Source: Deltaproteobacteria bacterium (GTDB lineage Bacteria; Desulfobacterota; DSM-4660; Desulfatiglandales; Desulfatiglandaceae). From it: a stretch of DNA of 64,000 bases. A program made the position numbers and the translations under genes. Below, piece by piece: positions 8,561 through 52,773 of the stretch (positions within the stretch are counted from its first letter, which is position 1; each line of letters opens with the position of its first letter). The stretch is from assembly GCA_021737785.1 (NCBI GenBank), contig JAIPDI010000005.1:1-64000 (forward strand), in the 5' to 3' direction. The notes under the pieces are model-generated. The model was not told the origin of the DNA. It ran no database searches and saw only the letters and a list, made by a program, of their open reading frames with translations.

Positions 8561-8700
8561 GGGATTGAGGAATTGAGGGATTTGTGTGAGAATTTCTGGT
8601 TGCGAGATGCGGGCGGTGACAGGGGGTAGTCTGTTTGCGTCATTTTCCGAGCCTTGCGCCTGGCGCCTAACGCCTTGCGCCTAACTTAGAGGGATGGGTG

Positions 8701-10032: not shown

Positions 10033-10087
10033 CCGGGAAAAGTGACCGGAGCGAATTCATGCGGTACTACCACAACCAAAAAAATAT

Positions 10088-10225
10088 CTCACACAAAGAC
10101 ACGAAGCCACAGAGAAATTCTTTTTGGGTATTTATCATTGACCCATTTTTGGTTTTTTCTTTGCCTGCCCCGTGAAACCTTTTTTTCTTTTGTTTCACCG
10201 GGGTGTCTCTGTGCCTCCGTGTGAG
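10088..10225. repeat. CTCACAC-family palindromic repeat, reversed copy
   Basis: Starts CTCACACAAAGACACGAAGC and ends GTGCCTCCGTGTGAG, which is the reverse complement of the usual unit. It includes the inner hairpin CCCCGTGAAAC...GTTTCACCGGGG. It lies immediately before pilQ. Confidence 0.8.
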
Positions 10226-10253
10226 TCATTGGTTTTAAAGGAGGATATCATTG

Positions 10254-31612: not shown

Positions 31613-31671
31613 GGTCGCGTATCGTGTTCCGGAGCAATGCCCCTTCCTCTATTTCCATGGTTACAGCTTAC

Positions 31672-31768
31672 CGGTTGCCCGTTGCTCATTGCTGGTTGCT
31701 GGTTGAGCGCTCACTTTCTCACCTTCTCACCTTCTCACCTTCTTGCCCTCTCACCCTCTCACCCTCGA
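31672..31768. repeat. TTGCTGG and CACCTTCT short-period repeats
   Basis: TTGCTCA/TTGCTGG units followed by CTCACCTT units, between gspD and the TPR gene. No open frame. Confidence 0.65.
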
Positions 31769-31769
31769 T

Positions 31770-32426
31770 CTAATCCACAATCTCCGCAAACCCCGGTGCA
31801 TTGCGCAGGTTTTCCAGATCCGCATCTTCCAGGGCCCATGCCTTGACCTGAGGATTCAGGGAGACCGCTCGTTTCAGGTATCTGATCCCTTGTTCCGCCT
31901 GATCCGTGAGGGCGAAGAGACACGCCAGATTGTAGCAGGGATCTACGTATCCCGGTTTCAGACGGAGGGCCTTTTCTAATCTGCTTCGGGCCTCCGGATA
32001 GTTTTTCTCGGTCATCAGGATAACGCCGAGGTTGTTCAATGCCGCCACATCGCCGGGATCCGCCTTGAGGGCCTTCATATAAAAAATCTTGGCCTCACTC
32101 AGCCGTCCGTCCCTGTGGTGCGCTTTTCCGGCTTGATAGAACGCATCAACATCTGCGGATTTACCCGGCACGGGGTCCGGGGCCCCACCTGCACGCGTCG
32201 GTTTCAAAGGGGCCTCTGGGGTTGCCCGGGGACCGCTTGAATCCAACCATGAATAGGCGATAAAAGCAAGAAAAAGGATGCCGAGCACCGCCGCAGCAAT
32301 CAACGCGGGTTTTGCAACAAGGCCCGACCCTTTTGAACGGGATGAGAGGGGGATCTCCTCATGCTTTTCGCTACGGTCGTCCCTTTCGGTCTGGGCCTTT
32401 TTCAATGCTTGATGGATGTAGCTCAT
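31770..32426 (-). CDS. TPR protein with GspB-like N-terminus
   Basis: 218 residues. The first residues, MSYIHQALKKAQTERDD, match the start of GspB/ExeB proteins (MSYILDALKKAE-like), followed by a single membrane span (about 37-57). The periplasmic part is three or so tetratricopeptide repeats instead of the usual GspB C-domain: FYMKALKADPGDVAALNNLG and SRLEKALRLKPGYVDPCYNL. With the ExeA-like ATPase encoded just upstream it could form a GspAB-like pair that helps seat the secretin in peptidoglycan. The fusion of a GspB-type anchor to TPRs is as read; the role is inference. Confidence 0.75.
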   Translation of the reverse strand: MSYIHQALKKAQTERDDRSEKHEEIPLSSRSKGSGLVAKPALIAAAVLGILFLAFIAYSWLDSSGPRATPEAPLKPTRAGGAPDPVPGKSADVDAFYQAGKAHHRDGRLSEAKIFYMKALKADPGDVAALNNLGVILMTEKNYPEARSRLEKALRLKPGYVDPCYNLACLFALTDQAEQGIRYLKRAVSLNPQVKAWALEDADLENLRNAPGFAEIVD

Positions 32427-32454
32427 AATGACACCAAGAATTGGGGGATTTCGT

Positions 32455-34035
32455 TCATTCCGTCATCTGAAACAGAAGGGCCATGGTCCTGGGGCCGACG
32501 ATCCCATCCGCATTCAGACCGAAGTCCTTCTGATACCTGACGACTTCCCTGTAGGTCTGCTCATTGAACACCCCGTCCTCCTCTATTGCATATCCGATCC
32601 GGTTCAGGAGCCGCTGGACCTTAAGGACCTCAGGGGAGATCATCCCTTTGTTCAGGTGCCGGTCACCCTCTTCATAGGGGTAGAGGAAGGAGACCTTTCC
32701 GCCCCAGTGCTTCAGGATAAATTCTCTGGAAACCGTCCGGGGGTTCCCTTCCCGGTCCAGGGCTACAGCGCCCCGGTCGGTTGTCCTGCTGAACAGGAGA
32801 TAGCGGGGTTGCGGCAGGGCAGGGGGGAAGGGACCGGCCACGGTCACCCGAAATGACTTCTTCAAAAGCGTAAAATATTCCGGCGCCAGGCTCAAGGAGA
32901 TCAGCCCCAGGTTGAGATCGCCCGTATCCGGAGTGATGTTTCCGTCCGGGCCATAGACCTTTCCCGGCCGGAGGCGGCTGTGGGCTCGAAACAGATCGAA
33001 CAGGCCGGTGAAGCTTGAACGTTCATCCAGGAACAGGGCGTCCGTTGTCTGTTCCACGGGCCTGGTCAAAGGGGGGGCCGTCACCGTTTCAGGAGGGAAA
33101 GCGGCATCCCGCCAGAGGCGCCAGCCGGCAAAGGCCGCAGTGATTACAAGCAACAGGAGGAGGACGATGGTCAGCCATCGGAGGCCGTATCCGGCTCGCG
33201 GTTCCGGCATCCGCCCGGCCCCTGAACCCCCGGACAGATCTTTGATGGCCTCTTTGATCATCCGGCGGGTAATGGTCTGCTTTTCATTGGCGTATGCAAT
33301 CAGGAGGGCCCGGTCGCAGACGGCGTTGATCCTTCTGGGGTTCCCCCGGCTGTACGCATAGATCGTGGTGAGGGCCCCTTTGGTAAACTTCAGATTTTCG
33401 CCCCCTCCCGCCACTGACAGTCGATGGCGGACATACCCCTTCAGGTCGGCCGCGTCCACGGGCTTGAGGTCGTATCGGACGGTAATCCGCTCATTCAACT
33501 GTCTCAGGGACGGCGCAGACAGGATGCCCTTCAACTCCGACTGACCCACCAGCACCACCTGGATCAGCTTGTCCTTCTCCGTCTCCAGGTTGGAAAGCAT
33601 CCGTATCTGTTCCAGGACCGGAGGGGAAAGATTCTGGGCCTCGTCCACCAAAAGGAGTGCATTACCGCCCTTTCCGAAGTTGTCCAGGAGGAACCGGTTG
33701 AGGGCATCAATGTAATCCTTCTTACTCTTTGCTTCAGGCCCCATCGGAATGCCGAACTCCTGGTTAATGGTCTCCAGGACCTCCATGTCGGAGATAAAGG
33801 AGCTGAAGATCAGGGCGCTCTTTGTATTCGGATCCAGATGGTCCAGGAGGGCCCGGCAGAGGGTGGTCTTTCCGGTGCCGATGCCTCCGGTAATGGCGAT
33901 AAACCCCCTCCTCTCATTGATTCCGTAGAGGAGATGGTCGAGGGCCTCCCTGTGATACCGGCTCAGATAGAGATATCTCGGGTCCGGCGTCAGATTGAAT
34001 GGATTTTCCTTAAAACCAAAAAAGGCGGTGTACAT
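32455..34035 (-). CDS. ExeA/GspA-like AAA+ ATPase with peptidoglycan-binding domain
   Basis: 526 residues. The N-terminal FFGFKENPFNLTPDPRYLYL (residues 5-24) is diagnostic for ExeA-type ATPases. Walker A is GGIGTGKTTL (Lys56) and Walker B is ALLLVDEAQNL. A membrane span lies near 285-305. The C-terminal about 70 residues form a PG_binding_1 domain (LLNRIGYAIEEDGVFNEQTY and FGLNADGIVGPRTM). ExeA uses ATP to help the secretin pass or assemble in peptidoglycan. I use the ATG at 34035; a TTG five codons earlier is possible. It heads the minus-strand secretion gene run. Confidence 0.88.
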   Translation of the reverse strand: MYTAFFGFKENPFNLTPDPRYLYLSRYHREALDHLLYGINERRGFIAITGGIGTGKTTLCRALLDHLDPNTKSALIFSSFISDMEVLETINQEFGIPMGPEAKSKKDYIDALNRFLLDNFGKGGNALLLVDEAQNLSPPVLEQIRMLSNLETEKDKLIQVVLVGQSELKGILSAPSLRQLNERITVRYDLKPVDAADLKGYVRHRLSVAGGGENLKFTKGALTTIYAYSRGNPRRINAVCDRALLIAYANEKQTITRRMIKEAIKDLSGGSGAGRMPEPRAGYGLRWLTIVLLLLLVITAAFAGWRLWRDAAFPPETVTAPPLTRPVEQTTDALFLDERSSFTGLFDLFRAHSRLRPGKVYGPDGNITPDTGDLNLGLISLSLAPEYFTLLKKSFRVTVAGPFPPALPQPRYLLFSRTTDRGAVALDREGNPRTVSREFILKHWGGKVSFLYPYEEGDRHLNKGMISPEVLKVQRLLNRIGYAIEEDGVFNEQTYREVVRYQKDFGLNADGIVGPRTMALLFQMTE

Positions 34036-34282
34036 GGGTGCAAGACGCAAGGGTCAACTTAAAGGATTTGCGCGAAACAGCTTCTCCCTTTTCAGGGAGC
34101 AATACATCCCGTGATGCCGGGCATCCGGGCAGTCGATTCTCAAGGGCCGCGACACGATGAGAGCATACGCGAAGTCACCGGAAACATCAATCGTAGATTT
34201 GACCCGGACCGGGGGCTCAAGGCCGTGGTTTCAGGACAGGCGTTTTATGACACAGGGATATTGACAGGTATGGCGGCGCGGC

Positions 34283-39019: not shown

Positions 39020-40651
39020 TTATTCCAAAAACAGCTTCTTCCGATCGATCGTGTACCCGGTACCGACCCTTCTGAGTTCGCGGTTGAAGTCCATGCCCTC
39101 CCTGGAGAGGCTGTTGACCCCATTGATCGTATAAAACTGGAGGACTTCAGGTTCGCAGGGGGCCTCATAGAGCCTGATTCCCTCATATTTCTTCCCCTGC
39201 AACGCCTTCCGCTTGATGAACTTATAGTCGTACGCCTCTTTAAAGGTCACGCCGCCGATGGGGCCGAAGGTGATGTCATCCCCATAAAGCCAGGCGTAGA
39301 AATCCTCGCGGTTGTTCTGCACCCAGATCTGTTCAGCCACCCGCGACTTGGTATGACGAAAGGCAATATAGTACTGAACCCCCATGACCTGATTGTCGCC
39401 GTCACCTTTCAGATCAAACACATCATAGCAGTGCGACAGGCTCCGGTAGTGGACAATCCCCTCCATTCCCTCTGAGGTGGAAGGGAGCATCTCCCTGAAT
39501 TCGGTGAGATGTCCGGAGTTGAGACGGGTGCAGCCATGGGATACCGGCCCCCGGCTCGTGATGGCCACCCGGTTGAAGGGCTTGTTGTTGCGGCTCCCCT
39601 GGGTCATTTTGGACCATTCCTTGGGGAGGAGATGGTGTCCGCCGATCCAGCAGCTGATGCCGGTATTGTGAATCGCGTTATATGCGATGCCGCCCCCGTA
39701 CTCGTAGGGAAGCATGGGCATCAGACCATAATAGCCTGCCGAGGAGATGTAGTCCACCATGCCCAAAAAGCCCTTCCCGTGTTTTCTGGGGATCAGGGTC
39801 CAGATGCCGGTGGTGGTGTACATGGGCATGACCTTTCCGTCATGGGTGGTGGTCTTGTCGTAGGTCCCTGCCGGATAAATGGATGTCAGCTCGTAATAAT
39901 CGAGCATGCCGTCTTTCACTGGATAGATGTCATGGGTAATGGCGTGGAAGAACGCCTCGGCCGCGGTCCTGAACTCGGCGGGGTTATCCCCTTGGGCCAG
40001 TTCCATGAGTCTGGCGAAAGCCCCTTCCTGTTGTGGCGTCAAATTATCCAGGAAGATGCGATGGGGGAAGAATTCATTGACCAGGTCCAGTTTGGCCTGA
40101 AGGGTTTCAGGTGGCGGCGATGTCTTGAGCAGCCGGGCAAAGTCATCGCACATCTTGTTGAAATTATTTTGGATATGAAACAGGCGGTGGGGTACGAGGT
40201 TGTCCATGGACGTCAGGTTCAGGGTTCGCCATTCTTCAGGACCCAGGTCTGCGCGTTTCTTGGCCAGATCATGCAATCCTTCCTGCGTCACCTTTTCGTG
40301 ATACGCCTCCCAGGCCATATTGGATGTCAGGGTGATGGTTTTTTTGTCGATCAGTTCCTGGTAGAGATCGTGCCGGGCCACTTGGTCCGGAAGGTAATTG
40401 ACAATGGTATCCTCGGGCAGTACCAGTCTCAGCCGGACCTGGTTGCCGCGTCCCAGATGGATGGTTATCCGCTTTCTGTCCTGGACCCGTGGGACAAATC
40501 CGGTATAGAAGTTGGGGTCGTAATCGTTGAAAAACACCCCGTAGGGCTCAGGGTTGGTCCACCGGTCTCGACTCAGGGCATGGGCGGATACAGGCATCAT
40601 TCCCATCATCAGAAAAAAGACACACATCCGCAAACCCCATCTGTTGATCAT
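39020..40651 (-). CDS. exported YkuD-like (SHGC motif) protein, paralogue 1
   Basis: 543 residues with a signal peptide (CVFFLMMGMMPVSAHA, cut before LSRD) and a strong ribosome site (AAAGGAGAT). The motif ITSRGPVSHGCTRLNSGH (Cys374, His372) is the catalytic box of L,D-transpeptidases of the YkuD fold. The rest, however, is not a normal L,D-transpeptidase: a long N-terminal domain with FYTGFVPRVQDRKRITIHLG, and a C-terminal domain after the box with KGDGDNQVMGVQYYIAF. A paralogue at 47813-49474 shares all these parts. It probably acts on peptidoglycan or another envelope polymer; the reaction is unknown. It follows ushA by 30 bases. Confidence 0.75.
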   Translation of the reverse strand: MINRWGLRMCVFFLMMGMMPVSAHALSRDRWTNPEPYGVFFNDYDPNFYTGFVPRVQDRKRITIHLGRGNQVRLRLVLPEDTIVNYLPDQVARHDLYQELIDKKTITLTSNMAWEAYHEKVTQEGLHDLAKKRADLGPEEWRTLNLTSMDNLVPHRLFHIQNNFNKMCDDFARLLKTSPPPETLQAKLDLVNEFFPHRIFLDNLTPQQEGAFARLMELAQGDNPAEFRTAAEAFFHAITHDIYPVKDGMLDYYELTSIYPAGTYDKTTTHDGKVMPMYTTTGIWTLIPRKHGKGFLGMVDYISSAGYYGLMPMLPYEYGGGIAYNAIHNTGISCWIGGHHLLPKEWSKMTQGSRNNKPFNRVAITSRGPVSHGCTRLNSGHLTEFREMLPSTSEGMEGIVHYRSLSHCYDVFDLKGDGDNQVMGVQYYIAFRHTKSRVAEQIWVQNNREDFYAWLYGDDITFGPIGGVTFKEAYDYKFIKRKALQGKKYEGIRLYEAPCEPEVLQFYTINGVNSLSREGMDFNRELRRVGTGYTIDRKKLFLE

Positions 40652-40681
40652 AATCCATCTCCTTTCCCATGGTGTAACGGT

Positions 40682-42397
40682 TCAGCGGGTTTCTGCCGGG
40701 GCCCCGGCAAGAGCATGAAACAAAATTCGGTTATGGCTGTACCCTTCAATCTCATCCACGGATTCCGGCCCGGAGATTACCTGTATCCTTCCATGGATCT
40801 TCGGCCTTATGCGACCCCCCAGGTGTTTAATGTACTTTACAAGGATATCCCGCTGAGGGGTGGATGAATTAACCTGGTCAAATCCCTTTAAAAAAACCTT
40901 ATACCCGTCGCCGCCGTCGGCCAAATAGGAATTGGTCACCACCGTGTATGTCCGGTCCGGATCAATCGCTTGGCCGCGAATGCGGATGTCTTCACATTTG
41001 CCGGTCAACCGGTTCAATGTGAAGCGCACCCCATCGGATACCTGCGGAAAGGCGCCTTCTCCAGCCCTTATGGTGGACACATAATCAAACAGGGAGGCGA
41101 CATCTGTCCCCTTGAGGCGCAAGACAACGGCCGTACTGTCAAAGGGGAGGATATCGAAGGCCCCCTTTTTTTTGATGGGACCCACAGCGAGATCGGCCCT
41201 GATGGCCCCTGCGTTGGTAAATGCAAAATCGGGATTGAATTTTCCCATGTACCAGAGCATGGAATCCGCCACCAGATCGCCCAGGGCCGTCTCCCTTTTC
41301 CTCTGATGCCGGTTCCAAAACGTTGCCTCGGCAAAACCGATCTCTTCTGACAAAATGCCCTCCACCTTATCCATGTAAGGCTGCAATATTTTCAGGAGTT
41401 CGGGGTCCTCCTCGATCTCCTTCCCGATATATTCATAGGTCCGGCCGCCGTCCGGCCTTGTCACCGCCTTCTTAAGATTGATCGGGATCAGTTCCATCGT
41501 GTAATCGATGATCCGCCGCTCGCGGATCCAGAGATCGATCCTCCCCAGAACCAGCCCGTACTGCCAGGCCTGGACAATTATGGCGTCGCCGCCGGAGTCG
41601 GGATGTCGGACCACGACCGGCGCAGTCAGCTTGGTATGGGTATTGCCGTCAACGATGAGATCGATCCCCCCGACCTGGGCGGCGAGTCTTCGGGAACCCC
41701 TGGAATTGTCTTCATAGACCCCCAGATGGGTGAGGGCAATAACGATATCCCCCTCTCTTCGCAGCATCGGCACCAGTGCCCGGGCCGCGTCCACTTCATC
41801 TTGAAACACCATTTCCCTGATGTGCTGAGGGTTGCCGGTAATCCGCGTCTCTTTGGCGGTAAGGCCGATGATGGCCACCTTGAACCCGTCGAATGCCTTG
41901 ATGATATACGGCGTTCCCACACGATCCCCTTCCCGGGTCCTCACATTGGCAGACAGAAAGGGAAAAGCGGCCCTGGCCATCTGCCCATTCAAGACATCCA
42001 GGGGGTTGTCAAACTCATGATTCCCCAAGGCCATGGCGTCATAACCGATGTAATTGTAGCCCACGATATCCGGCTCTGCCTTGAATAAGTCCGATTCCGC
42101 ACTCCCGGTATTCAGATCCCCGGCATCCAGGACCAGAACATTCGGGTGCTGGTCTCTTATCTCTTTGACAAGCGTGGCCCTGGCGGGCAGGCCCCCGACG
42201 TCGGGGATCTGACCATACTGGAATTTTACCGGGTGCCCATGGGTGTCGTTGGTAAAAAGAACCACCAGATGGTGGGTAGAAGAATGGCTGTCCGGTTTGG
42301 ACGCGGCAGGGGTGCAGGCCCAAAGGCACAGGAGGAGGACCAGGACCAAAAAGCGGAGGCATCGCTTATAATTTTCGTTTGACTGAAGACCGTTCAT
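40682..42397 (-). CDS. 5'-nucleotidase / UshA-like lipoprotein
   Basis: 571 residues. The signal ends in the lipobox LWAC, so it is a lipid-anchored envelope enzyme. The N-terminal metallophosphoesterase domain has the two-metal motifs FTNDTHGH, DAGDLNTGS, GNHEFDNP, IALTHLG and DGNTHT. The C-terminal 5_nucleotid_C domain carries FTNAGAIRADL and YVVTNSYLADGGDGY-like TVVTNSYLADGGDGYKVF. It hydrolyses nucleoside 5'-phosphates such as AMP (some relatives also UDP-sugars). The ATG at 42397 follows AAGGA; a GTG five codons earlier is also open. It heads a two-gene operon with the YkuD-like gene, divergent from the dikinase. Confidence 0.9.
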   Translation of the reverse strand: MNGLQSNENYKRCLRFLVLVLLLCLWACTPAASKPDSHSSTHHLVVLFTNDTHGHPVKFQYGQIPDVGGLPARATLVKEIRDQHPNVLVLDAGDLNTGSAESDLFKAEPDIVGYNYIGYDAMALGNHEFDNPLDVLNGQMARAAFPFLSANVRTREGDRVGTPYIIKAFDGFKVAIIGLTAKETRITGNPQHIREMVFQDEVDAARALVPMLRREGDIVIALTHLGVYEDNSRGSRRLAAQVGGIDLIVDGNTHTKLTAPVVVRHPDSGGDAIIVQAWQYGLVLGRIDLWIRERRIIDYTMELIPINLKKAVTRPDGGRTYEYIGKEIEEDPELLKILQPYMDKVEGILSEEIGFAEATFWNRHQRKRETALGDLVADSMLWYMGKFNPDFAFTNAGAIRADLAVGPIKKKGAFDILPFDSTAVVLRLKGTDVASLFDYVSTIRAGEGAFPQVSDGVRFTLNRLTGKCEDIRIRGQAIDPDRTYTVVTNSYLADGGDGYKVFLKGFDQVNSSTPQRDILVKYIKHLGGRIRPKIHGRIQVISGPESVDEIEGYSHNRILFHALAGAPAETR

Positions 42398-42474
42398 TCC
42401 ATTCCTTAGCACCTTATTCCGAGGTTTTCTGCAACAAAAAACAATCAGATGATTGTGGGAGAGTGACGTCTTTA

Positions 42475-42593
42475 ATTTGGAATAATGGAAGTTTGGAATA
42501 ATGGAATAATGGGTTTAAGGAAAAAAACCTTTCCTGGGTGATCCAGGTTCCTTTCCCAATCTTCCATTATTCCAGTATTCCAACATTCCAAAT
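42475..42593. repeat. long imperfect hairpin of GGAATAATGG units
   Basis: The left arm (ATTTGGAATAATGGAAGTTT, continuing to GGG) pairs with the right arm (CCCAATCTTCCATTATTCCA, continuing to CCAAAT) over about 38 bases; CCTGG-GTGAT-CCAGG is at the tip. Similar TTCCAGTATTCC units occur at 53660-53690. Confidence 0.6.
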
Positions 42594-42852
42594 GTCTGGC
42601 GACATCGAACCCCCTTGATAATAAAAAGTCACTCGAGAGCCACTTTGGTTGCGGTTACCCGCTTTAGTTTCATTCGAATCTTCGTTTATAATCTACCGGG
42701 TTTATAGGGCCGCAAGGATTCACCACATGCACGAAAAACAGGCACTCCTTCAGGGCATCCATTGGTTCTGACCTCCGCCCGTGGCGTGAAGAAAGGCCAC
42801 GCTGATCATCCAGAGGCTTCGGAATGAAACGGCCGAAGGGCGTTTGTTGATG

Positions 42853-42881
42853 TTGCAATGCACCATTGCCAATGGTATAGT
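42853..42881 (+). promoter_or_regulatory. candidate promoter and operator of the dikinase gene
   Basis: TTGCAA (42853-42858), a 17-base spacer and TATAGT (42876-42881) form a good sigma-70-type promoter. The spacer contains the palindrome ACCATTG-C-CAATGGT (42862-42876), well placed for repressor binding. Confidence 0.5.
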
Positions 42882-42939
42882 AACCCCGTTTTTTTCTATA
42901 ACAATGGGTTGATTGTAGGTTTTTTGGAAGGGGTCTTCA

Positions 42940-45900
42940 ATGAAAAAGTTCGCCTGGGTGCTGATCCTGCTGTTGATCTGTTTGTGTGCCGGTCCGGTCA
43001 TGGCCGGGTTGACTCCAGAGGAGAAAAAGGATCTGCGCCGCACTTACAAGGCCATCGAGGCCAAGCTCAAGGGTCCCTTTGACATTAACACATGCACCTG
43101 CACCAACGGCAGGCTGGCGCCGGTGGCCGACAAGGACATGCGGGTCCGGCCCAATCCCTGTATGGAACTGGAAGGGGTGGGCCAGCTCTTCTGCTCGGCC
43201 TATCGGAACGATTTGGCCAAGAAACTGGCCCGGCACGGGGTATACGTGGGCAATATCTTCTCTAATGAGGTGTTTCTGTGGGATGAAACCCCTGACCATC
43301 ATCGCGTGGCCCGGGGATTTATCCTTGAGAAATACTACATGGAGACCCATCCGGATTCCAAACTCACCATGGCCCGGGCCTATGGCGGCATATCCGGCAG
43401 CGAGTTCGAGGTCAGGTACGCCCCCATATTTTTTGCCAAATATTATGCCCTCCAAGACTGGAAGGATTTTCACAACTACCTGCTGCAATACGAATTGCAG
43501 AGACGGTTCTTCTGTAAGTGCAACCTGTCCTTGATCAATGACGTCCGGAACCTCTCGCTGGTCATGTATCGTAACTACAAACCGTTCAAACCAGTGAAAG
43601 ACCTGGTCCACAACCGCCTCTCTTCCGGGTCCATTCAACTTATCGAGGAGTTTCGGGAGAAGCACCCCCAAGACAAGGCAAATGCGGGTAATTACAGTAA
43701 GTTAATTGAGTTGGTCCGAAAGATGACCCATGTGGATCAAGGCCAGCTGAAAGAGTACCTGCCCGGGATTTCCGACAAGGGCATTCTGGACCTGCTCCAA
43801 ACGGTTCTTGACATTCCCGGGAATGCACCCCTCAGGCTTCTCCACATGCTGGGGAACCTGGTGGCGGCATCCAGGGAAACCGTAGCGGCCAGGCAGATAC
43901 CGCCTGAAGAGGCCGTCACATTGATCAACCTGAATGTCTCTGCCAACCTGCTCATGCTCATGACCACGAATCGACTCATGGAAGCGGACCGGGACTGGAC
44001 TGTGAGGGAACTTGTCGGCATCCTCAAGGATACATTGGCCGGCAGCTACGGGGCCGGTCTGATGAGTCGCCGGGAGTACGAATCCGGGACCTCATCCTTG
44101 AACAGGCTCCTCGATAAGAGGGATCTCACCATCGGCGAGGCCTACCGTACCCTCAATCGGGCCAACCTGGTGGTGGAATGGGCCCAGGCCTCCATACGGA
44201 CGGCATTTTCAGACGTGTGGGACCCATGGGTGTATCTTTTCCCCGAGGTTCAGCGCATCAATGACGACATTATCCGTTCCTCGCCCCTCATGGCATATGC
44301 CGACATCATCACGTCCCTGCGGGGACATTTGCTGACCAAACTGGATTTGAAGCACCACATCATCGGGGAAACCCGCGTTCAGGGGGTTCGGGCGTTGAAT
44401 CCAGGGCTTGCCCTGGGGCCGCTGGCCTTTTTCAGAGAATCAGGCACCTATACCCGCGACAATATCCTTGCCCTTGAGACCACCAATGCAGAGCTGGAGC
44501 CGGTGGCAGGCATCATCACCAAGGACGAAGGAAACGTGGTCTCCCATGTGCAGCTGCTGGCCCGGGCCCTTGGCGTTCCCAATGCCGTCTTCCTGAACGC
44601 CCTTTACGGCAGGCTGGCTGCCGTGCAGGGGAAATCCCTCTTTTATGCCGTGACGCCCATGGGCCGAATCATTCTCAAGGAAGCCGACAAGATGGACCCG
44701 GTGGACGAAAAGATCCTGGCAGAATACCAGAAGAACATCAAACGGACGCAAGACGCGGATGTGCGGGGGCAGTCCGGGAAATTGATGATAGACGCGGGAC
44801 GCCTGAACCTCAAGGAAACACGGGTGCTGTGCCTCCAGGATGTCAGGCGGAAGGATTCAGGGGTTATCTGCGGGCCCAAGGCGGCCTTTTTAGGAGAGCT
44901 GACATATTACTTCCCCCATAATGTGGCACGCGGGGTCGTCATCCCCTTTGGCATTTATGCAGCACACTTCGAAAAGGCGAGTGTGGTTTTGCCTGAGGGC
45001 CTCAAGGTCAAGGGAATTGCAGTGGCCGGCCAACCCCTGACGGCATTTGTGCGCGGCACATACGATACGTTTTTCAATAATTTGCTCCAGGACCCCGCCA
45101 TGTCATCGGCGCAACTGGCTGAATGGATACAGCCGAGACTGAATGTTATTCGGCATTCCATCGAAAAGATCGACCTTGACCCGGCCTTTGTGCAGGCCCT
45201 GAGAGAGCAACTCGCCGCCCAGGGCCTTTTCGCCGACAGCAAGGCCGACCGCCTGCGGGGCGTCTTTGTCCGTTCGGACACCAATGTGGAGGACATGCCC
45301 AACTTCAACGGCGCGGGACTTAACCTCACCATTTTCAACCTCATGACCTTTTCCGACGTACTGGAAGGGATCAAAGCGGTGTGGGCCTCTCCGTTTACCT
45401 ATCGTTCCTTTTCCTGGCGTCAGACGGTCATCAGCGATCCGAACCTGGTCTTCCCTTCCATCGTGGTCCTGGAATCGGTGCCGTCGGAAAAATCCGGTGT
45501 GCTGATCACCGCGGATGTGGATACAGGCGACCCCACGCGCATGACCATTGCCACGGCCGAGGGGGTGGGGGGCACGGTGGACGGGTCCCCTGCCGAGACA
45601 TTGCTTTACAGCAAAAACGAAACCGTACTGTTGAACCAGTTCAAGTCGCCCACCCGGCGAATGCTGATCCTGGAGGGAAAAGGCGGCTCGCAAATGGTTC
45701 CCTCCACAGGGTCCGAGCGGGTCCTCACAGACGATGAACTGAGGGCCCTTGTGGCGGCTGCTGAAAAGATAGAACAGGAGTTCACCCCTGAAGCGGGTGT
45801 TGACGGCAGTCCCCTGCCCTGGGATATCGAGTACGGATTTGTGAATGGAAAGCTCTTTCTCTTCCAAACCCGCCCGTTTGTCGGCAACAGTGATTTGAGA

Positions 45901-45993
45901 AATCTGCCGGCCCTTACTGCCCTGGACAAGGGGATGAAGGAAAAGGAACAACAGCCTTTTTCGCTAGAGGAAAAGGTCACGTGGCAGCCCTGA
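42940..45993 (+). CDS. exported dikinase: phosphohistidine domain followed by C-terminal ATP-grasp domain
   Basis: 1017 residues with a type I signal peptide (VLILLLICLCAGPVMA, cut before GLTP), so it is a periplasmic or secreted enzyme. Residues about 24-490 are helical, not a family I know, with six Cys (52, 54, 74, 85, 192, 194). The mobile phosphohistidine domain (about 500-580) has VVSHVQLLARALGVPNAV with His536. The PPDK/PEP-synthase ATP-grasp domain (about 630-990) has GPKAAFLGEL (Lys647), FVRSDTNVEDMPNFNGAG (Arg778), DIEYGFVNGKLFLFQTRP (Glu964, Gln976, Arg978). This order, His before ATP-grasp, is that of glucan water dikinases; PEP synthase has the reverse. No PEP-binding barrel is seen. 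The acceptor is unknown. Confidence 0.8.
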   Translation: MKKFAWVLILLLICLCAGPVMAGLTPEEKKDLRRTYKAIEAKLKGPFDINTCTCTNGRLAPVADKDMRVRPNPCMELEGVGQLFCSAYRNDLAKKLARHGVYVGNIFSNEVFLWDETPDHHRVARGFILEKYYMETHPDSKLTMARAYGGISGSEFEVRYAPIFFAKYYALQDWKDFHNYLLQYELQRRFFCKCNLSLINDVRNLSLVMYRNYKPFKPVKDLVHNRLSSGSIQLIEEFREKHPQDKANAGNYSKLIELVRKMTHVDQGQLKEYLPGISDKGILDLLQTVLDIPGNAPLRLLHMLGNLVAASRETVAARQIPPEEAVTLINLNVSANLLMLMTTNRLMEADRDWTVRELVGILKDTLAGSYGAGLMSRREYESGTSSLNRLLDKRDLTIGEAYRTLNRANLVVEWAQASIRTAFSDVWDPWVYLFPEVQRINDDIIRSSPLMAYADIITSLRGHLLTKLDLKHHIIGETRVQGVRALNPGLALGPLAFFRESGTYTRDNILALETTNAELEPVAGIITKDEGNVVSHVQLLARALGVPNAVFLNALYGRLAAVQGKSLFYAVTPMGRIILKEADKMDPVDEKILAEYQKNIKRTQDADVRGQSGKLMIDAGRLNLKETRVLCLQDVRRKDSGVICGPKAAFLGELTYYFPHNVARGVVIPFGIYAAHFEKASVVLPEGLKVKGIAVAGQPLTAFVRGTYDTFFNNLLQDPAMSSAQLAEWIQPRLNVIRHSIEKIDLDPAFVQALREQLAAQGLFADSKADRLRGVFVRSDTNVEDMPNFNGAGLNLTIFNLMTFSDVLEGIKAVWASPFTYRSFSWRQTVISDPNLVFPSIVVLESVPSEKSGVLITADVDTGDPTRMTIATAEGVGGTVDGSPAETLLYSKNETVLLNQFKSPTRRMLILEGKGGSQMVPSTGSERVLTDDELRALVAAAEKIEQEFTPEAGVDGSPLPWDIEYGFVNGKLFLFQTRPFVGNSDLRNLPALTALDKGMKEKEQQPFSLEEKVTWQP

Positions 45994-46200
45994 TACGCCG
46001 CATTTCGCGACATGCCGGCCGATGGCAGTCCCTCTCCCCGCGAGGCGGGAGAAGACAGACCCTGTTCGCATCCGCCGGCATTTTCCCGCCTGAACGTGGC
46101 ATACACATGCAGAATTCAAACAATGGGCTCCGCAGGCCGTCATGCTCTTGGGGCCACAGATATATGACTAACGGGGATACCCGCAACCAATCCCGCGGGA

Positions 46201-46371
46201 CTCACACAGAGACACAGAGCACACAAAGGTTTTTTTGAAAATAAACGGGAACATGCCCTTTTCTCTGTGTTCTTTGCCTGCCCCGTGAAACCTTTTCTGT
46301 GTTGTTTCACTCGGGGTGGCTCCGCCTGCCCTGTGAAACCATTTTTTGCTCTTGTTTCACCGGGGTCTGAG
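46201..46371. repeat. CTCACAC-family repeat with two inner hairpins
   Basis: Starts CTCACACAGAGACACAGAGC. It contains CCCCGTGAAACC...GTTTCACTCGGGG and CCCTGTGAAACC...GTTTCACCGGGG, and ends GTCTGAG. The only copies outside this one lie in 7.6-14.8 kb around the pil operon. Confidence 0.75.
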
Positions 46372-46379
46372 TCTATAAA
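46352..46379 (+). promoter_or_regulatory. candidate promoter at the repeat end
   Basis: TTGTTT (46352-46357), a 16-base spacer and TATAAA (46374-46379), 85 bases before the ATG of the nucleotide-transporter gene. The -35 is within the repeat, so the repeat may have brought the promoter. Confidence 0.35.
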
Positions 46380-46464
46380 ATAAGGCGTACTGAGATACAA
46401 ACAGATTTTCTTGTTTTTTGTTACAGGGGTATTGGAAATAAGGTACTCACTGCGAGGTCAAAAA

Positions 46465-47799
46465 ATGAATCGGCGCAAGCGATGGGATGCGGGCTTCTTC
46501 TCCGCAGTCGAGGAGAAAAAGGGTGTCTTTCTGCCGCTTTTCGGGTGCTTTTTTCTGATCTTGTTCAGCTACAGCTTCATCCGGCCGGTCTGCGAGTCTC
46601 TCTTTCTCTGCTCCTGGGGGGCGTCCAAAATGCCCCATGTATGGATCATCTCGGCCGCGGCCACGGCTGCGGTGGTCTGGGTCTACAACAAATTTGTCGG
46701 CGCTAACCGACCTTACCGGCTCTATGCAGCGAGCAATTTTATCGCAATCGCCTTTTTCCTCCTGTTTTACGTCTATTTCTCTGCGAAAAACAGAGGATTT
46801 GCCCTTACGGCCTTTATTGTAAAAGACATCTATGTGGTCATTCTTATCGAACAATTGTGGAGCTTTTGCGATGCCACGTTTTCTGAAAACGAGGGCAAGA
46901 CGCTGTATGGTTTTCTGGCCGGGGCATGTTCCATCGGCGGGATTGCGGCGAGCGTTTTGACAGTCAATCTGGCGTCTGTCTTGGGCTCCAATAACCTCTT
47001 GTTTGTGGGCTGCGGCGCCTTGCTGGCAGGCGTCTCGCTGTTCGGATACGCCAATAAAAAGAGTTCTGAGACCTTGAACAGGGCGCGGATTGATGACGGC
47101 GGTAATCGTTCGAAAGACCGTCCGTTGGAAAAAGGGGCCGAAGGACACCGGAAAAAGGAGAAAAAGACCGCCATCTGGGGCGGTTTGGATGTGGTGTTCA
47201 AGTCAAAATACCTGATCCTGATATGCATCATGCTGATGTTAAGCCAGTTTGTGACGGCGCTGATCGGTCTTCAGTTCAACCAGGTCCTGGAGGTCCAGAT
47301 CACGGAACTGGACCTGAGGACCGCCTACCTGGCCAAGTTCTACGGCGCAACCAATGTGATATCGTTGATCCTTCAGTTTGTGGTCAGTGCACCCATTCTC
47401 CATTTCCTGGGGCTGCTGCTGTCGCTGTTGCTGGTGCCGGCCATCATGGGCGCCGGATCTTTCGCCTTTTTCTTCCTCCCTACCATGACCGTTTTGTTCG
47501 GGACGCGAGTGGCCAACAAGAGCCTGACCTATTCACTCTTTCGCGCTGCCAAGGAGATCCTCTACATCCCTCTGACCTATATTGAGAAATACAAGGGCAA
47601 GGCGGTCATTGACATGTTTATATACCGCTTTGCCAAGGGGGGCATCGGTGTCGTTATTATCGGCCTTCAGGCCTTGATGCCCGTGACCCCCTTCACCATC
47701 AACTATATGATCATCGCGCTGATCCTCGTATGGATGCTGATGGTGCCTCTTTTGATCGCTGAATACAGGGGCCGGAAACTTGCAGGTTCACCAGGATAA
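46465..47799 (+). CDS. NTT/Npt1-Npt2-family nucleotide transporter
   Basis: A 444-residue inner-membrane protein with about 11-12 spans. The C-terminal half has the family segment YSLFRAAKEILYIPLTYIEK and YKGKAVIDMFIYRFAKGG, very close to that of ATP/ADP translocases of Rickettsia and Chlamydia and their free-living relatives; the N-terminal RPVCESLFL is also family-like. Proven members swap ATP for ADP or import nucleotides; for relatives in free-living bacteria the substrate is unproven. The ATG at 46465 has GAGGT 7 bases upstream; an open TTG start at 46411 is less likely. It leads a run of three genes. Confidence 0.82.
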   Translation: MNRRKRWDAGFFSAVEEKKGVFLPLFGCFFLILFSYSFIRPVCESLFLCSWGASKMPHVWIISAAATAAVVWVYNKFVGANRPYRLYAASNFIAIAFFLLFYVYFSAKNRGFALTAFIVKDIYVVILIEQLWSFCDATFSENEGKTLYGFLAGACSIGGIAASVLTVNLASVLGSNNLLFVGCGALLAGVSLFGYANKKSSETLNRARIDDGGNRSKDRPLEKGAEGHRKKEKKTAIWGGLDVVFKSKYLILICIMLMLSQFVTALIGLQFNQVLEVQITELDLRTAYLAKFYGATNVISLILQFVVSAPILHFLGLLLSLLLVPAIMGAGSFAFFFLPTMTVLFGTRVANKSLTYSLFRAAKEILYIPLTYIEKYKGKAVIDMFIYRFAKGGIGVVIIGLQALMPVTPFTINYMIIALILVWMLMVPLLIAEYRGRKLAGSPG

Positions 47800-47812
47800 T
47801 ATCGGAATTAAA

Positions 47813-49474
47813 ATGACAACATCGCTTCTACGCTTCTGCATGGGGAGGCAACTAATTGCCTTCATCATCCTTTTATTCATAACAGGCTGGGTCGTTCAGG
47901 CCGCCGGAGCTTCAACAGATGAGACCCCGGATCAAAAGAAGACGGAGGCACAGCCTCCCGGCGTTTATTTCTACCGTCTGGAGCCTTCCTTTTATACGGG
48001 CTTTGCTCCCCGATGCCAGGACCCGGAGAGGATTCACATCCATGTGGGCCGCGGCAATCAGCTTCGCGTGACCGTTGTCTTGTCAGATCGGACCGTGGAT
48101 AACTACCTGCCCGATCTGGCGCTCCGGTACCGCACTTATAATCAGCTTATCAAAGACGGGACCCTCACGCTGACCCAGAATAGGGGCTTTGAAAAGTTTT
48201 GTTCCGTCATCATGGAACAAGACATCCTGGGGCTGGCCGGTCTTCAAAAGGAGATGGATGCGGCGGGGTTCCGTAAACTTGGTCTTGAGATGCTTGAAAA
48301 ACTGAATCCGGGGCGGGTCTTTCACATCCGGATCGATTTTGACCGGAGAATGCATGACTGGTCATCCCTTCTGAACCCATATCTGGGAAAAAAGCCCTCC
48401 ATGGCCCAATGCCTCGACCTGATCAATCAGATGCTTCCCACACGGATGTGGCTTTCCGAGTTATTTACGGGATTAAGGGCCAAGCTGAACCGGGCCATCA
48501 CCCTGTATGCGGTGTATGAAGAAGGTCAAAGAGGGAAGATCTTCTGGGATAAATTCTATGCGGCGGCAGTCGATCTGTTTGAAACCGCGACAGGAGGTAT
48601 ATATCCCCTGAAAGGGACTGATCTCGATTTCTATGAGTTTACAGCCATCTACCCTGTGGGGACCGCCAATGCATTCACTCAGTACGAAGGACAACGCATC
48701 CCGCAGTATCCATACCCGGGCAAGCGTGCCCTCACCCATCACCAGCGGACCAGGGTGGTAGACCACATCCCCGACATCCCCTGTTACGGGTATTTGCCCT
48801 GGATTCCGTATATGCACGTGGGCGAGAAGCTTCACAACTCCTTCCACACCCTCTGGTTCAATATCGACACCCGCACGAACGGGTTTATTCCAAAGGAATG
48901 GAAGAACAATACCCAGGACAGCCGGACCGGCCGACCCTATCCCCACCTGTGGCTCCTCAGCCGGGGGCCCATGAGCCACGGCTGCACCCACGTGAACGCC
49001 GGCCATATTTCAGAACTTCGGCAGATGCTCCCTTCCAGTGAAGCGTTGCTGGGGAAGGTGGAGACCTTTCGAAACAGATCCGATCAGTTCGATGTGTTTG
49101 ATATCGACGGGGATGGACGGTTAGAGGTCATGGGTGTGAAATATTTTTACGCCTACTCGCTCAAGGGGAAAAAGCCGCACCAGATGAGGGCCCCCTCGGA
49201 CCGGAAATCCTTCTACAAGTGGCTCTACAAAAATGGCTACCATTACGCGCCTGACGGAAGGGTGGTCTTTGAAAAGGCCCCGACCTCTAAATTCATTGGA
49301 AAAAGGGCTGTCAGGGGGAAAGTATATAAAAATATATCATTGTATGAGGCTGCTTATGAACCGGAGGCCATTCAATTTTACAAACCGACCAGCATACCCT
49401 TTGTGAGGGAGTTGAGACGCGTCAGTGCTGCCTGTCCTCTCAACCGCAACATCTTGAAGTTGGATGAAAATTAA
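47813..49474 (+). CDS. exported YkuD-like (SHGC motif) protein, paralogue 2
   Basis: 553 residues with a signal peptide (LIAFIILLFITGWVVQAAGA). The catalytic-like box is LLSRGPMSHGCTHVNAGH (Cys391, His389). The protein aligns along its length with the one at 39020-40651: FYTGFAPRCQDPERIHIHVG, NYLPDLALRYRTYNQLI, and after the box FDVFDIDGDGRLEVMGVKYF. The last segment, DIDGDGRLEVMG, looks like a Ca-binding loop (DxDGDG); the paralogue has DLKGDGDNQVMG there. It starts 13 bases after the nucleotide transporter, so the two share a transcript. The function is unknown; an envelope polymer substrate is inferred. Confidence 0.75.
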   Translation: MTTSLLRFCMGRQLIAFIILLFITGWVVQAAGASTDETPDQKKTEAQPPGVYFYRLEPSFYTGFAPRCQDPERIHIHVGRGNQLRVTVVLSDRTVDNYLPDLALRYRTYNQLIKDGTLTLTQNRGFEKFCSVIMEQDILGLAGLQKEMDAAGFRKLGLEMLEKLNPGRVFHIRIDFDRRMHDWSSLLNPYLGKKPSMAQCLDLINQMLPTRMWLSELFTGLRAKLNRAITLYAVYEEGQRGKIFWDKFYAAAVDLFETATGGIYPLKGTDLDFYEFTAIYPVGTANAFTQYEGQRIPQYPYPGKRALTHHQRTRVVDHIPDIPCYGYLPWIPYMHVGEKLHNSFHTLWFNIDTRTNGFIPKEWKNNTQDSRTGRPYPHLWLLSRGPMSHGCTHVNAGHISELRQMLPSSEALLGKVETFRNRSDQFDVFDIDGDGRLEVMGVKYFYAYSLKGKKPHQMRAPSDRKSFYKWLYKNGYHYAPDGRVVFEKAPTSKFIGKRAVRGKVYKNISLYEAAYEPEAIQFYKPTSIPFVRELRRVSAACPLNRNILKLDEN

Positions 49475-49524
49475 GAGGAAGGCGGGACCGGGAGCGTCCG
49501 GGTCCCCTGTTGTATCGGGCCGCC

Positions 49525-52500
49525 ATGTCAGATCATACCATTGCCAACCGCCGTCACGTCCAGCTGATTGTTGCGTTATGCCTCTTCGTTTTCTTCAACA
49601 TCACCTGTTTTACCCTTGTCACCTCTTTTACCAAGAGCAACTTTCTGACAGCCATTCAGACATCTCCCGTCTTTAAAGACGTCTACAATCAGAGACCTTA
49701 CTTCTTTCTCTACGGGCTTTCCGGCGTCTGCTTTATCCTCTTCTATCTCATCTATCACATGCTAAGCCCAAGGACCTCCTTCGAATACCGCATCAAGAGA
49801 GAACTCCTCTTTCTCTCCGGCGCATCACTGGTGCTCTATCTGCTCCCTGTACTGTTCCCAGGGTTTGAGCAGCGGTTTCTTCCGGCTGCCTTCTATTTTA
49901 TTATCTATGACATTTTAGACGACCTGATCCTTGTTCAGACCTGGACCCTGATCAATTACGCCATCGATATCCGTCAATCCAAGAAGATCCAGAACCTCTT
50001 TCTCTTTTCAGGGGGGGTGGCCGCGGTCATCTCAGGCCGGGGCATTATCCGGCTTGTCCCGGAAAACAACGAGACCTTCTTTCTCCTTCTGGTGCTCCTT
50101 TTCTCAGGCATCAGCTACCTGATCGTGACCTATATTTTTTTCCGCCACCGCGACCGGATCTTCACCACCTTCTCTACTGAAAAGATGCGGTTTAAGACCC
50201 TTTTTACCTCTCAAAAGAAATATGGCATCATCCGGTCCATCATCTACCTGACGGTCCTTGTGGGGATATTCAATCTTTTCTTCAAGGTCCTCTTCGACAC
50301 CCAGGTCAACGTCCGATATCCGGTTGCGGCCACAGTGGCCACGGCATCGTTCGATCCATTAACGATGCCCGATCCCAAGACCGAATTCATCGGTCAGTAC
50401 AAGGCATTCATCAGCATTTTTCAGGTGGCCCTGCAACTCGTATTTATCTATTTCTTCTCGAGGCTCTGGCTGAACGGACGCATCCTCCTGTCGTACCCGC
50501 TGATCCTGATCCCCATCCTTGGTTTCATCCTGGGGGTGTACCTCGCCCGCCGACCCGGATTCGAAGGCATTTTATTCTGGGGCACGATCGTCGCCTGCGG
50601 CGCCAACGAGCTGATGCGGAGGATTATCTTTGACGCCGCCTACCAGTTGCTCTTGTTTTCCATCCCTGAAAAGCTGTGCAACGCCCTGAGGATGTATGCC
50701 AAACTCCTGATCAAGCCATGGGTCGTCATTGTCATCTGCGCATTTTTTGTGGCGATCCCCCCGCAGACCAGCCCGTTTTTGATTTATTGCATCCTCATCA
50801 TGCTGTTTCTTGGTCTGATGACCGCCGTGGTATTGCGAATTCCCAATGCATATATCTCTTCTCTTAAGCGGTCGGTCCTCCGCAGACTTCCGGTGGAGCG
50901 TTCCATGGACTCGTTAGTGAGACTTGAGACCAACTACATCGTGGAGCAATACCAAAAAGTGGTGGCCGAAAGCGATGATCGGTTCGGATATCTCTATATC
51001 CTCAATATTATCCAAAACAACTACTCCCCTGATCTCAACGCCATCCTAAGCGCTCTCCTTGAAAACAGGGACATCGAGGTGCGTCTGGAGGCGGTTTCAG
51101 TGGTAACCGAACTGGGCATTCAGAAACTGATAGGCCGGATAGAGGCCCTCTTTGCCCGGGAAACAGATCCCGATCTGAAAAAGGCCTGTCTCAAGGCGGT
51201 TGCGGCATGGGGCATCTCCAATGAGGCCCGGGTCCAGGAATGGATGCGTATGGATCTTCCCATAGACCTCCGTAAATATGTGCTCGCGGCGGCATATCGG
51301 ACCGGGTCCGCGGGTCTCATGGAAATTGCGGCCCAGGAAGCGGCAGCCCTTTCCCACGCCACGGACCACGCCGCCATACTGGCCGGGATCTGGCTCATCG
51401 GTGAGTTGAGGCTTTCACACCTGACCGATGGGATACAACGCCATGTTGATATGGAAGACCGGCGGGCATACCGGGTCATTCTTGAGGCCGCGGCCAAGCT
51501 GGAAGATTTTGGGCTGTTTACTTCCTGCATCCAGCATCTGGGCTATGAGCGGATTGTCAACGATGAGGTCTTTCACCGCAGTCTCGCGCGCTTCGGCGCC
51601 CGTGCATTTGAGGTCATCTCGGACATGCTCGAAATGATCATTGAGTCCAAAACCCATTTTGAGCTGAAAAACTGTATTCGGACCCTGCGCCATATCCCTT
51701 CGCAGGATGCGGTGGATTTTCTGACAGATGTTTTTCGGCGCTACAACGTCCCTCTGATTCGGGAGGAGGCCCTCGATTGCGTGGCCAGGATCAAGACAGC
51801 GGAACCGAATCTGGATTACCACCGGATTATGGAAAATCTGCTCGAAGAGATTCACCAATGCAGGAAATACTGCCGTTATTGGAGAGCCGTGTCATCATCT
51901 AAACCTGAAAGCCTCATGTTGATCGAACTGGCGAGAAATATCGAGCATCGGATCTGGTCCATATTCAAGGTGCTGAACATGTTCCATTCCGATCTGGCCA
52001 TATTTGATTCCTATTGCCGGATCACCCAGACCTCCTGTCAACAGGTGGACGCGTCCCATGTCAAGGCCAAGTCCATTGAATATCTGGAGAGCCTGATAAA
52101 GGAAAACTATCCTGAATTGTTAACGTTTCTGGAATCCATTACGTTCGAGGACGGAATCATTGTCGACGTGGCCCCGTTGCCGGGTCCCCGCCTGAATGTC
52201 ATGGATGTGTATGAAGAAATCCTGGGGCAAAGCAATCACTGGCTTGAAATTTCGGCGATATTGGATATGCCGCCCGGCATGAGAGAACGATTGGGGTCCA
52301 GTTCAAAGGAGACGGAAGACATGATACCAGTCATGGAAAAAGTCCACTTTTTGCGGAAGGTCCCGCTTTTCAGAGGGTTTTCCATTGGCGATATGATGGT
52401 GATCGCTCAGATCGCCCAAGAGGTCAGGCTTGAGGCCGGAAACGTGCTGTTCAGAAAAGGGGACAGGGGGAACGCCCTGTATCTGATCCTGGAAGGTGAG

Positions 52501-52773
52501 GTGGACATCGTCAACGAGGAGAGGCGCCTTCTGTCCAAACTGGGCGCCACCCGATGTTTTGGCGAGGTGTCGCTGTTGGACAAAAAGGGCCGTGCGGCCA
52601 CGGCCGTTTGTATGAACGACTGCCGGATGCTGATGATTTCCAGTGACGATTTTGAAGAGATTCTTGAAAAATACCCCGTACTGTATAAAAATATCGTCCA
52701 GGTCCTTACCGGCTGGTTGCGCAACACTCCGCCCACCCAAGAAAGGAATGGGATTAAATGGAGCGGATCGTGA
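49525..52773 (+). CDS. NTT-like transporter fused to HEAT repeats and a cyclic-nucleotide-binding domain
   Basis: 1082 residues in three parts. Residues 1-440 are about 12 membrane spans resembling NTT/Npt nucleotide transporters (LVQTWTLINYAIDIRQSKKI, GANELMRRIIFDAAYQLLLF). Residues about 450-880 are helical HEAT-type repeats (NRDIEVRLEAVSVVTELGIQ). The last about 130 residues are a Crp-like cyclic-nucleotide-binding domain: FRKGDRGNALYLILEGEVDI, then the phosphate cassette FGEVSLLDKKGRAATAV with Glu1014 and Arg1023. It seems to be a transporter whose activity could be gated by a cyclic nucleotide. It follows the YkuD-like gene by 50 bases. Confidence 0.8.
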   Translation: MSDHTIANRRHVQLIVALCLFVFFNITCFTLVTSFTKSNFLTAIQTSPVFKDVYNQRPYFFLYGLSGVCFILFYLIYHMLSPRTSFEYRIKRELLFLSGASLVLYLLPVLFPGFEQRFLPAAFYFIIYDILDDLILVQTWTLINYAIDIRQSKKIQNLFLFSGGVAAVISGRGIIRLVPENNETFFLLLVLLFSGISYLIVTYIFFRHRDRIFTTFSTEKMRFKTLFTSQKKYGIIRSIIYLTVLVGIFNLFFKVLFDTQVNVRYPVAATVATASFDPLTMPDPKTEFIGQYKAFISIFQVALQLVFIYFFSRLWLNGRILLSYPLILIPILGFILGVYLARRPGFEGILFWGTIVACGANELMRRIIFDAAYQLLLFSIPEKLCNALRMYAKLLIKPWVVIVICAFFVAIPPQTSPFLIYCILIMLFLGLMTAVVLRIPNAYISSLKRSVLRRLPVERSMDSLVRLETNYIVEQYQKVVAESDDRFGYLYILNIIQNNYSPDLNAILSALLENRDIEVRLEAVSVVTELGIQKLIGRIEALFARETDPDLKKACLKAVAAWGISNEARVQEWMRMDLPIDLRKYVLAAAYRTGSAGLMEIAAQEAAALSHATDHAAILAGIWLIGELRLSHLTDGIQRHVDMEDRRAYRVILEAAAKLEDFGLFTSCIQHLGYERIVNDEVFHRSLARFGARAFEVISDMLEMIIESKTHFELKNCIRTLRHIPSQDAVDFLTDVFRRYNVPLIREEALDCVARIKTAEPNLDYHRIMENLLEEIHQCRKYCRYWRAVSSSKPESLMLIELARNIEHRIWSIFKVLNMFHSDLAIFDSYCRITQTSCQQVDASHVKAKSIEYLESLIKENYPELLTFLESITFEDGIIVDVAPLPGPRLNVMDVYEEILGQSNHWLEISAILDMPPGMRERLGSSSKETEDMIPVMEKVHFLRKVPLFRGFSIGDMMVIAQIAQEVRLEAGNVLFRKGDRGNALYLILEGEVDIVNEERRLLSKLGATRCFGEVSLLDKKGRAATAVCMNDCRMLMISSDDFEEILEKYPVLYKNIVQVLTGWLRNTPPTQERNGIKWSGS

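Follow-up and report, generated by a model that had tools for sequence, protein, structure and literature searches.

We analysed a window of 64,000 nucleotides (positions 1 to 64,000 of contig JAIPDI010000005.1, assembly GCA_021737785.1) from a Deltaproteobacteria bacterium of the family Desulfatiglandaceae. The subject of this work is a gene cluster at positions 39020-52773 of the window, which brings together an exported dikinase (DIK), two nucleotide transporters of the ATP/ADP-carrier family (NTT1 and NTT2), a nucleotidase lipoprotein (NUC) and two exported proteins with a Ser-His-Gly-Cys box (SHGC1 and SHGC2). An earlier note on this DNA, made from the letters alone, had described these six genes as two divergent runs, and a check of the open reading frames (ORFs) found all six in place. 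The features are as follows.

39020-40651, minus strand: SHGC1, an ORF of 543 residues, exported YkuD-like (L,D-transpeptidase-like) protein
39530-39541, minus strand: SHGC box of SHGC1 (S371-C374) with the putative catalytic Cys374, invariant in 28 homologues; coordinates derived from the ORF
40682-42412, minus strand: NUC, UshA-type 5'-nucleotidase lipoprotein of 576 residues, with PF02872 and PF00149 and the lipobox LWAC at residues 30-33
42940-45993, plus strand: DIK, exported dikinase of 1017 residues, PF01326 at E 1e-28, examined in a 29-member alignment and tree
42940-43005, plus strand: signal peptide of DIK (MKKFAWVLILLLICLCAGPVMA), from the export score, with the cleavage site judged by eye
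43006-44379, plus strand: N-terminal region of DIK, about 458 residues, candidate acceptor-binding region, matching no known family, with invariant Cys54 and Cys74
44398-44619, plus strand: swivelling phosphohistidine domain of DIK, about residues 487-560, aligned to the swivel domain of phosphoenolpyruvate (PEP) synthase 8a8e
44545-44547, plus strand: codon of the catalytic His536 of DIK, in the swivel motif VVSH, invariant in 29 homologues
44866-45885, plus strand: ATP-grasp domain of DIK, residues 643-982, from PF01326 and 8a8e (E 2e-27), with five invariant residues (K647, R778, E964, Q976, R978)
46411-47799, plus strand: NTT1, nucleotide transporter of the ATP/ADP-carrier family, 462 residues, PF03219 at E 4e-23
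47780-49474, plus strand: SHGC2, exported YkuD-like paralogue of SHGC1, at most 564 residues; its start is probably an internal ATG a few codons downstream of the ORF start
48974-48985, plus strand: SHGC box of SHGC2, invariant in 28 homologues; coordinates derived from the ORF
49510-52773, plus strand: NTT2, fusion transporter with NTT, HEAT and cyclic nucleotide monophosphate (cNMP) domains, 1087 residues
Domains of NTT2: NTT at about residues 12-441, HEAT from about residue 511, cNMP at residues 972-1055, based on the HEAT_2 and cNMP_binding families and on hhalign with NTT1

Promoter-like sites were no commoner than in shuffled sequences.

The properties of DIK are those that an active, exported, ATP-using enzyme should have, as judged by its conserved signals and invariant residues. 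Pfam matched PF01326 at residues 730-984 and, below threshold, PF00391 at 517-550; the latter exceeds its cut-off in one DIK homologue (L033) and stays below it in the DIK of the window. A comparison of the DIK profile with the PDB gave the match to PEP synthase 8a8e over the ATP-grasp domain, with the swivel domain aligned too. His536 and the five ATP-grasp residues, which align with those of PEP synthase, were invariant in the 29 aligned homologues, as were the two cysteines of the N-terminal region. Export was judged by a simple score of our own for hydrophobicity, charge and cleavage, with proteins of the window that are plainly cytosolic, PNPase and PilM among them, as controls. The values were 3.9-4.2 for DIK, NUC and SHGC2 and 2.9 for SHGC1, against at most about 2.3 for the controls, and signal peptides were recognized in each of the 27 DIK homologues whose 5' end could be read. 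The export that the earlier note had read from this gene, for which the invariant pair of cysteines also speaks, and an intact catalytic machinery are upheld.

That note had placed DIK with PPDK-type enzymes; the order of its domains is neither that of PPDK nor that of PEP synthase. The swivel domain precedes a C-terminal ATP-grasp domain that ends the protein, which is the domain order of a glucan, water dikinase (GWD). Since Pfam and NCBIfam scans found no C-terminal PEP/pyruvate-binding barrel, DIK is not a PEP synthase. No match to CBM45, CBM20 or another CBM was seen in Pfam at E values up to 1, and the N-terminal 480 residues matched nothing in Pfam or the PDB. An AlphaFold model of DIK built from a shallow alignment reached a mean confidence (pLDDT) of 38, too low for a comparison of folds. 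On plasmids, only ordinary PEP synthases were among the matches listed.

Two further observations concern DIK homologues. In genome G487 one copy lacks its middle (L087:8988-10688 on contig C163; profile positions 3-482, then 930-1011), and a nearly complete second copy lies on contig C173; the former is either an internal deletion or an assembly join. In genome G222 a metallo-beta-lactamase-fold protein with a cNMP-binding domain (L018:12642-14855, plus strand) lies directly upstream of a DIK of class II (as defined below); together with the cNMP domain of NTT2, this protein may point to cyclic-nucleotide control.

The cluster was found to be conserved in several ways. The order NUC-DIK-NTT1-SHGC2-NTT2 is kept in several genomes of the window's family, including strain NaphS2, where it is partly cut by contig ends in places, and the outer neighbours of this block differ in some genomes of the family. 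Outside this family, searches with a DIK profile detected relatives in 4 of 395 genomes sampled across the phylum; in one other class they were present in 19 of 148 genomes, which represent 10 of 72 genera. The cluster is more than a chance arrangement, since its order is found again within the family and its genes come together, in altered order, in other families and classes. Recurrence of this kind was the decisive check that the earlier note had set for itself, and the gene set is indeed present in distant lineages of the phylum rather than specific to one strain.

Two types of DIK, here class I and class II, separate with full support in the tree of 29 members and differ in their surroundings. 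At class I loci an exported protein of the beta-lactamase fold, BLA2, is encoded divergently from DIK, which is mostly followed by one or two SHGC genes, and in several of these loci NTT1-NTT2 come before or after. At class II loci DIK is accompanied by one or two genes for BLA2 and, in most cases, by NTT1. SHGC was found in 13 of the 148 genomes of the other class, and all 13 contain a class I DIK. Counted by genus, the chance of this match is about 7e-10 if genera are assumed to be independent, a figure that overstates the case because they are not. NTT1 was present in 18 of the 19 DIK-positive genomes of that class (the remaining one, G502, has a partial NTT2 at a contig end), and among the 148 genomes NTT1 matches of at least 600 bits were confined to those with DIK. 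Outside the window's family an NTT gene lies less than 5 kb from DIK in 16 of 26 loci, where chance would predict about 1% per locus, as calculated for up to 4 NTT copies in about 5 Mb. We consider it well supported that these genes work together.

The two transporters are, by profile comparison, both members of the ATP/ADP-carrier family, as the earlier note had surmised. The NTT1 profile matched solved carriers over their full length (9j3n, E 3e-20; 9j3j, E 2e-17), and an alignment with canonical carriers showed that the NTT1 sequences diverge from them at the N-terminal RDTKD motif. In NTT2, Pfam recognized HEAT_2 and cNMP_binding, and the NTT domain was detected only by profile comparison with NTT1 (hhalign probability 99, E 1e-19). 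NTT-HEAT-cNBD fusions were described in 2017 as widespread and uncharacterised (PMC5381601). A role of the locus in anti-phage defence was considered and rejected; PADLOC matched the cNMP domain of NTT2 only.

NUC contains PF02872 (E 2e-33) and PF00149 (E 3e-12), both above cut-off, and is exported by virtue of its lipobox. Its description in the earlier note as a UshA-type 5'-nucleotidase lipoprotein therefore stands. Its presence in the cluster was limited to the window's own family, where it may remove AMP.

SHGC1 and SHGC2 are paralogues with 36% identity, and SHGC1 has a hydrophobic N-terminal signal; on relatedness and export alike the earlier note was right. What it had missed is the likeness of the SHGC box to the motif of YkuD. 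The SHGC family has 28 members, in whose alignment H328 and S371-H372-G373-C374 (SHGC1 numbering) are invariant. The sequence S-H-G-C with an upstream invariant histidine is the catalytic signature of YkuD L,D-transpeptidases. YkuD was also the Pfam family matched by most SHGC members (6 of 28), with the matches falling on the motif and all under cut-off. SHGC1 by itself matched nothing in Pfam or NCBIfam, the SHGC profile gave chance matches only in the PDB, and an AlphaFold model of SHGC1 from a shallow alignment had a pLDDT of 45, likewise too low to be used. The SHGC proteins look like divergent YkuD, or L,D-transpeptidase-like, proteins.

The list of six components in the earlier note was correct as far as it went, although it lacked two exported partners that are encoded outside the window. 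The first, BLA2, is a serine acyl-enzyme of the beta-lactamase/PBP fold with PF13354 above cut-off and the motifs SxxK, SSN and K[ST]G (for the class A beta-lactamase/PBP fold in general, SxxK, S[DS]N and K[ST]G); it scores far under the cut-offs of named beta-lactamases. Outside the window's family, BLA2 is a neighbour of DIK in almost all loci that are not truncated. Within that family, matches to BLA2 were limited to two genera that contain DIK, g1 and g216; a third DIK-positive genus, g205, gave none in genomes that are highly fragmented and in one case 58% complete.

The second partner is a kinase-like domain, KIN. In three genomes it forms the C-terminal part of BLA2, with the K, E, HRD..N and DNG constellation of protein and PI-kinases, and elsewhere it occurs alone. 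Members of the KIN family, fused to the beta-lactamase fold or alone near NTT genes, are listed below.

L041:7849-9678, minus strand: KIN family member
L073:8397-9371, plus strand: stand-alone KIN with a signal peptide
L074:6278-7264, minus strand: stand-alone KIN with a signal peptide
L100:10162-11454, minus strand: KIN as a probable lipoprotein beside NTT1 and NTT2, away from DIK

In six KIN sequences K78/K80, E97, H190-R191-D192, N197 and D213-N214-G215 were invariant. The family is unnamed in Pfam and NCBIfam, and its profile gave chance matches only in the PDB. KIN was not found in the DIK loci of the window's family, these loci being the part of those genomes that was searched for it. 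If KIN is a kinase, one NTT-linked gene set includes two unrelated exported users of ATP, and this is the best indirect argument for a supply of ATP to the periplasm.

We propose that the genes of the cluster specify a modification system that works outside the cytoplasm, depends on ATP and is linked to the envelope, a reading to which we assign a probability of about 0.48. NTT1 and NTT2 would act as nucleotide exchangers in the inner membrane and thereby deliver ATP to the periplasm, under cyclic-nucleotide control through NTT2. DIK would use this ATP to phosphorylate itself at His536, with release of AMP and inorganic phosphate; its N-terminal region would hold the acceptor to which the phosphate is then transferred. 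SHGC1 and SHGC2 as cysteine acyl-enzymes and the unlinked BLA2 as a serine acyl-enzyme would have a common substrate in a polymer associated with the cell wall, the likeliest being the peptide part of peptidoglycan. YkuD-like and PBP/beta-lactamase-type acyl-enzymes usually act on peptidoglycan peptides. In some relatives the exported, kinase-like KIN joins these genes. What can be read directly from the DNA are the export signals, the intact residues of the dikinase, membership of the NTT family and conserved linkage; outward transport of ATP by the NTT proteins and an acceptor made of cell-wall material are what we infer.

Several observations weigh against this proposal or limit it. The best match of SHGC to the Pfam YkuD family was below threshold (E 0.027, 15.5 bits against a cut-off of 23.4), and no match emerged when SHGC was compared by hhalign with three YkuD proteins encoded in the same genome. 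For these two reasons we call the proteins YkuD-like and do not file them in the YkuD family. SHGC was not present in the class II DIK loci. BLA2 is unlinked in the window's genome, where it sits on another contig (C29), and the NUC profile found no member in the 26 DIK loci outside the window's family. The gene set is therefore not fixed, and the removal of AMP by NUC, which the earlier note had made a step of the system, is not supported as a general part of it. The assignment of KIN is weak, its best Pfam match being PI3_PI4_kinase at E 0.0056, below cut-off. Nor did we find any domain for the binding of glycans, phosphate or peptidoglycan from which the acceptor could be named. The direction and the substrate of transport by the NTT proteins cannot be given by sequence alone, and the function proposed for the cluster as a whole rests on genomic evidence. 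The interpretation in the earlier note is on balance partly supported.

The alternative that survives best, although we consider it unlikely, is ATP-driven ligation. DIK would make an acyl phosphate from a carboxylate and thereby join or cross-link cell-wall peptides outside the cytoplasm, with SHGC and BLA2 preparing or attaching the ends and the NTT proteins supplying the ATP. Activation of a carboxylate as an acyl phosphate has been proposed for the prodigiosin ligases, which belong to the dikinase superfamily. The ATP-grasp domain of DIK does match the ligases RedH and PigC, but more weakly than it matches PEP synthases. The constant partners of DIK are peptide-acting types of acyl-enzyme and fit bond formation as well as they fit phosphorylation. 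On the other hand, the domain order is that of the water dikinases, which are phosphotransferases, and there is no hint in the sequence of a carboxylate acceptor. Phosphorylation and acyl-phosphate ligation are indistinguishable from these data.

It is somewhat less likely again that DIK works outside the cell with a donor not supplied by the NTT proteins, such as pyrophosphate, polyphosphate or ATP set free when neighbouring cells lyse, and that the NTT proteins are regulators under cyclic-nucleotide control or transport something else. The divergence of NTT1 at the RDTKD motif and the cNMP domain on NTT2 would fit such roles, as would a bacterial NTT that was inactive in nucleotide transport assays in a 2011 study, as that study is cited in PMC5381601. 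However, all ATP-site residues of DIK are kept, the best-scoring NTT1 proteins were found only together with DIK, and a second exported, kinase-like protein accompanies the NTT proteins.

We judge it improbable, more so than either of the foregoing, that the locus serves nucleotide scavenging, in which the NTT proteins would import nucleotides, DIK, NUC and other exported enzymes would process nucleotides or debris of other cells, and the cell-wall-type enzymes would be lytic or incidental. NTT proteins of intracellular bacteria do import ATP (PMC5381601), NUC is a typical scavenging enzyme and the sign of transport is unreadable here. However, NUC was not found outside the window's family, a dikinase spends ATP and brings no gain from scavenging, and the strict tie of SHGC to class I DIK would be left unexplained. 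Finally, DIK might be an ordinary PEP synthase-like enzyme of the cytoplasm whose start was misread and whose neighbours are unrelated. Only the closeness of the ATP-grasp domain to PEP synthases would point to this reading, which is already disfavoured and can be all but set aside given the missing barrel, the position of the swivel domain before the ATP-grasp domain, the signal peptides in 27 of 27 homologues and the repeated clustering.

Several other genes of the window were noted. Type IV pilus assembly genes occupy 5245-12644 on the plus strand and include PilM (5245-6339) and a secretin with AMIN and STN domains (10251-12644). A lipoprotein-like protein of 1164 residues at 14875-18369 (plus) is built of bacterial Ig-like (Big_1/invasin D3) repeats, and a HEAT-repeat protein of 536 residues at 25868-27478 (minus) has a hydrophobic N-terminal stretch. 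At 29465-34050 (minus) a second, GspD-like secretin (29465-31612) lies near an ORF for an ExeA-like ATPase (32455-34050), suggesting type II secretion genes.

Enzymes of the periplasm are commonly assumed to do without ATP. The route by which ATP might cross the inner membrane into the periplasm was described as unknown in a 2020 review (PMC7432876). A conserved gene set that couples homologues of ATP carriers to an exported ATP-using enzyme provides a genetically defined setting in which this question could be studied. We put forward, as a tentative idea with somewhat less than an even chance of being right, that free-living bacteria run a dedicated extracytoplasmic ATP economy, in which NTT exporters of ATP feed an exported enzyme of the water dikinase type, and in some lineages an exported kinase, for the phosphorylation or activation of an acceptor linked to peptidoglycan, on which YkuD-like and PBP-like acyl-enzymes also act. 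If true, this would give a physiological role to the NTT proteins of free-living bacteria and to the uncharacterised NTT-HEAT-cNBD fusions, and phosphorylation or ATP-driven ligation would join the known kinds of envelope modification.

Among known systems, DIK is most like the plant GWD and PWD, which share with it a variable N-terminal acceptor part, a phosphohistidine domain and a C-terminal PPDK-like nucleotide-binding domain without a PEP/pyruvate barrel. In GWD the C-terminus is such a nucleotide-binding domain and follows the phosphohistidine domain (PMC5575247). DIK differs in being bacterial and exported, in having neither CBM45 nor CBM20 and in an N-terminal region of no family; the likeness is one of domain order. 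With PEP synthase, PPDK and rifampin phosphotransferase DIK shares the ATP-grasp domain, the swivelling histidine and all key residues, but its domain order is reversed, a third, substrate domain is missing and a signal peptide is present. NTT1 resembles the carriers of plastids, Chlamydia and Rickettsia in its full-length profile match to solved structures, and NTT2 has the published architecture of the NTT-HEAT-cNBD fusions (PMC5381601), whereas here both occur in free-living bacteria and are tied to an exported dikinase. The SHGC proteins share export and the S-H-G-C box with its upstream histidine with the YkuD L,D-transpeptidases, yet they are about 540 residues long, have their two catalytic motifs about 28 residues further apart and match the family below its cut-off. 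BLA2 is like class A beta-lactamases and other proteins of the PBP fold in its export, PF13354 and motifs, and unlike them in its low scores against named beta-lactamases, its conserved partner DIK and the kinase-like domain carried by some copies. In the open-access literature we found no paper that joins YkuD with a dikinase, or a pyruvate-binding domain with a nucleotide transporter. Each of the families is known or nearly so, and it is their combination for which, as far as our search went, no description was found.

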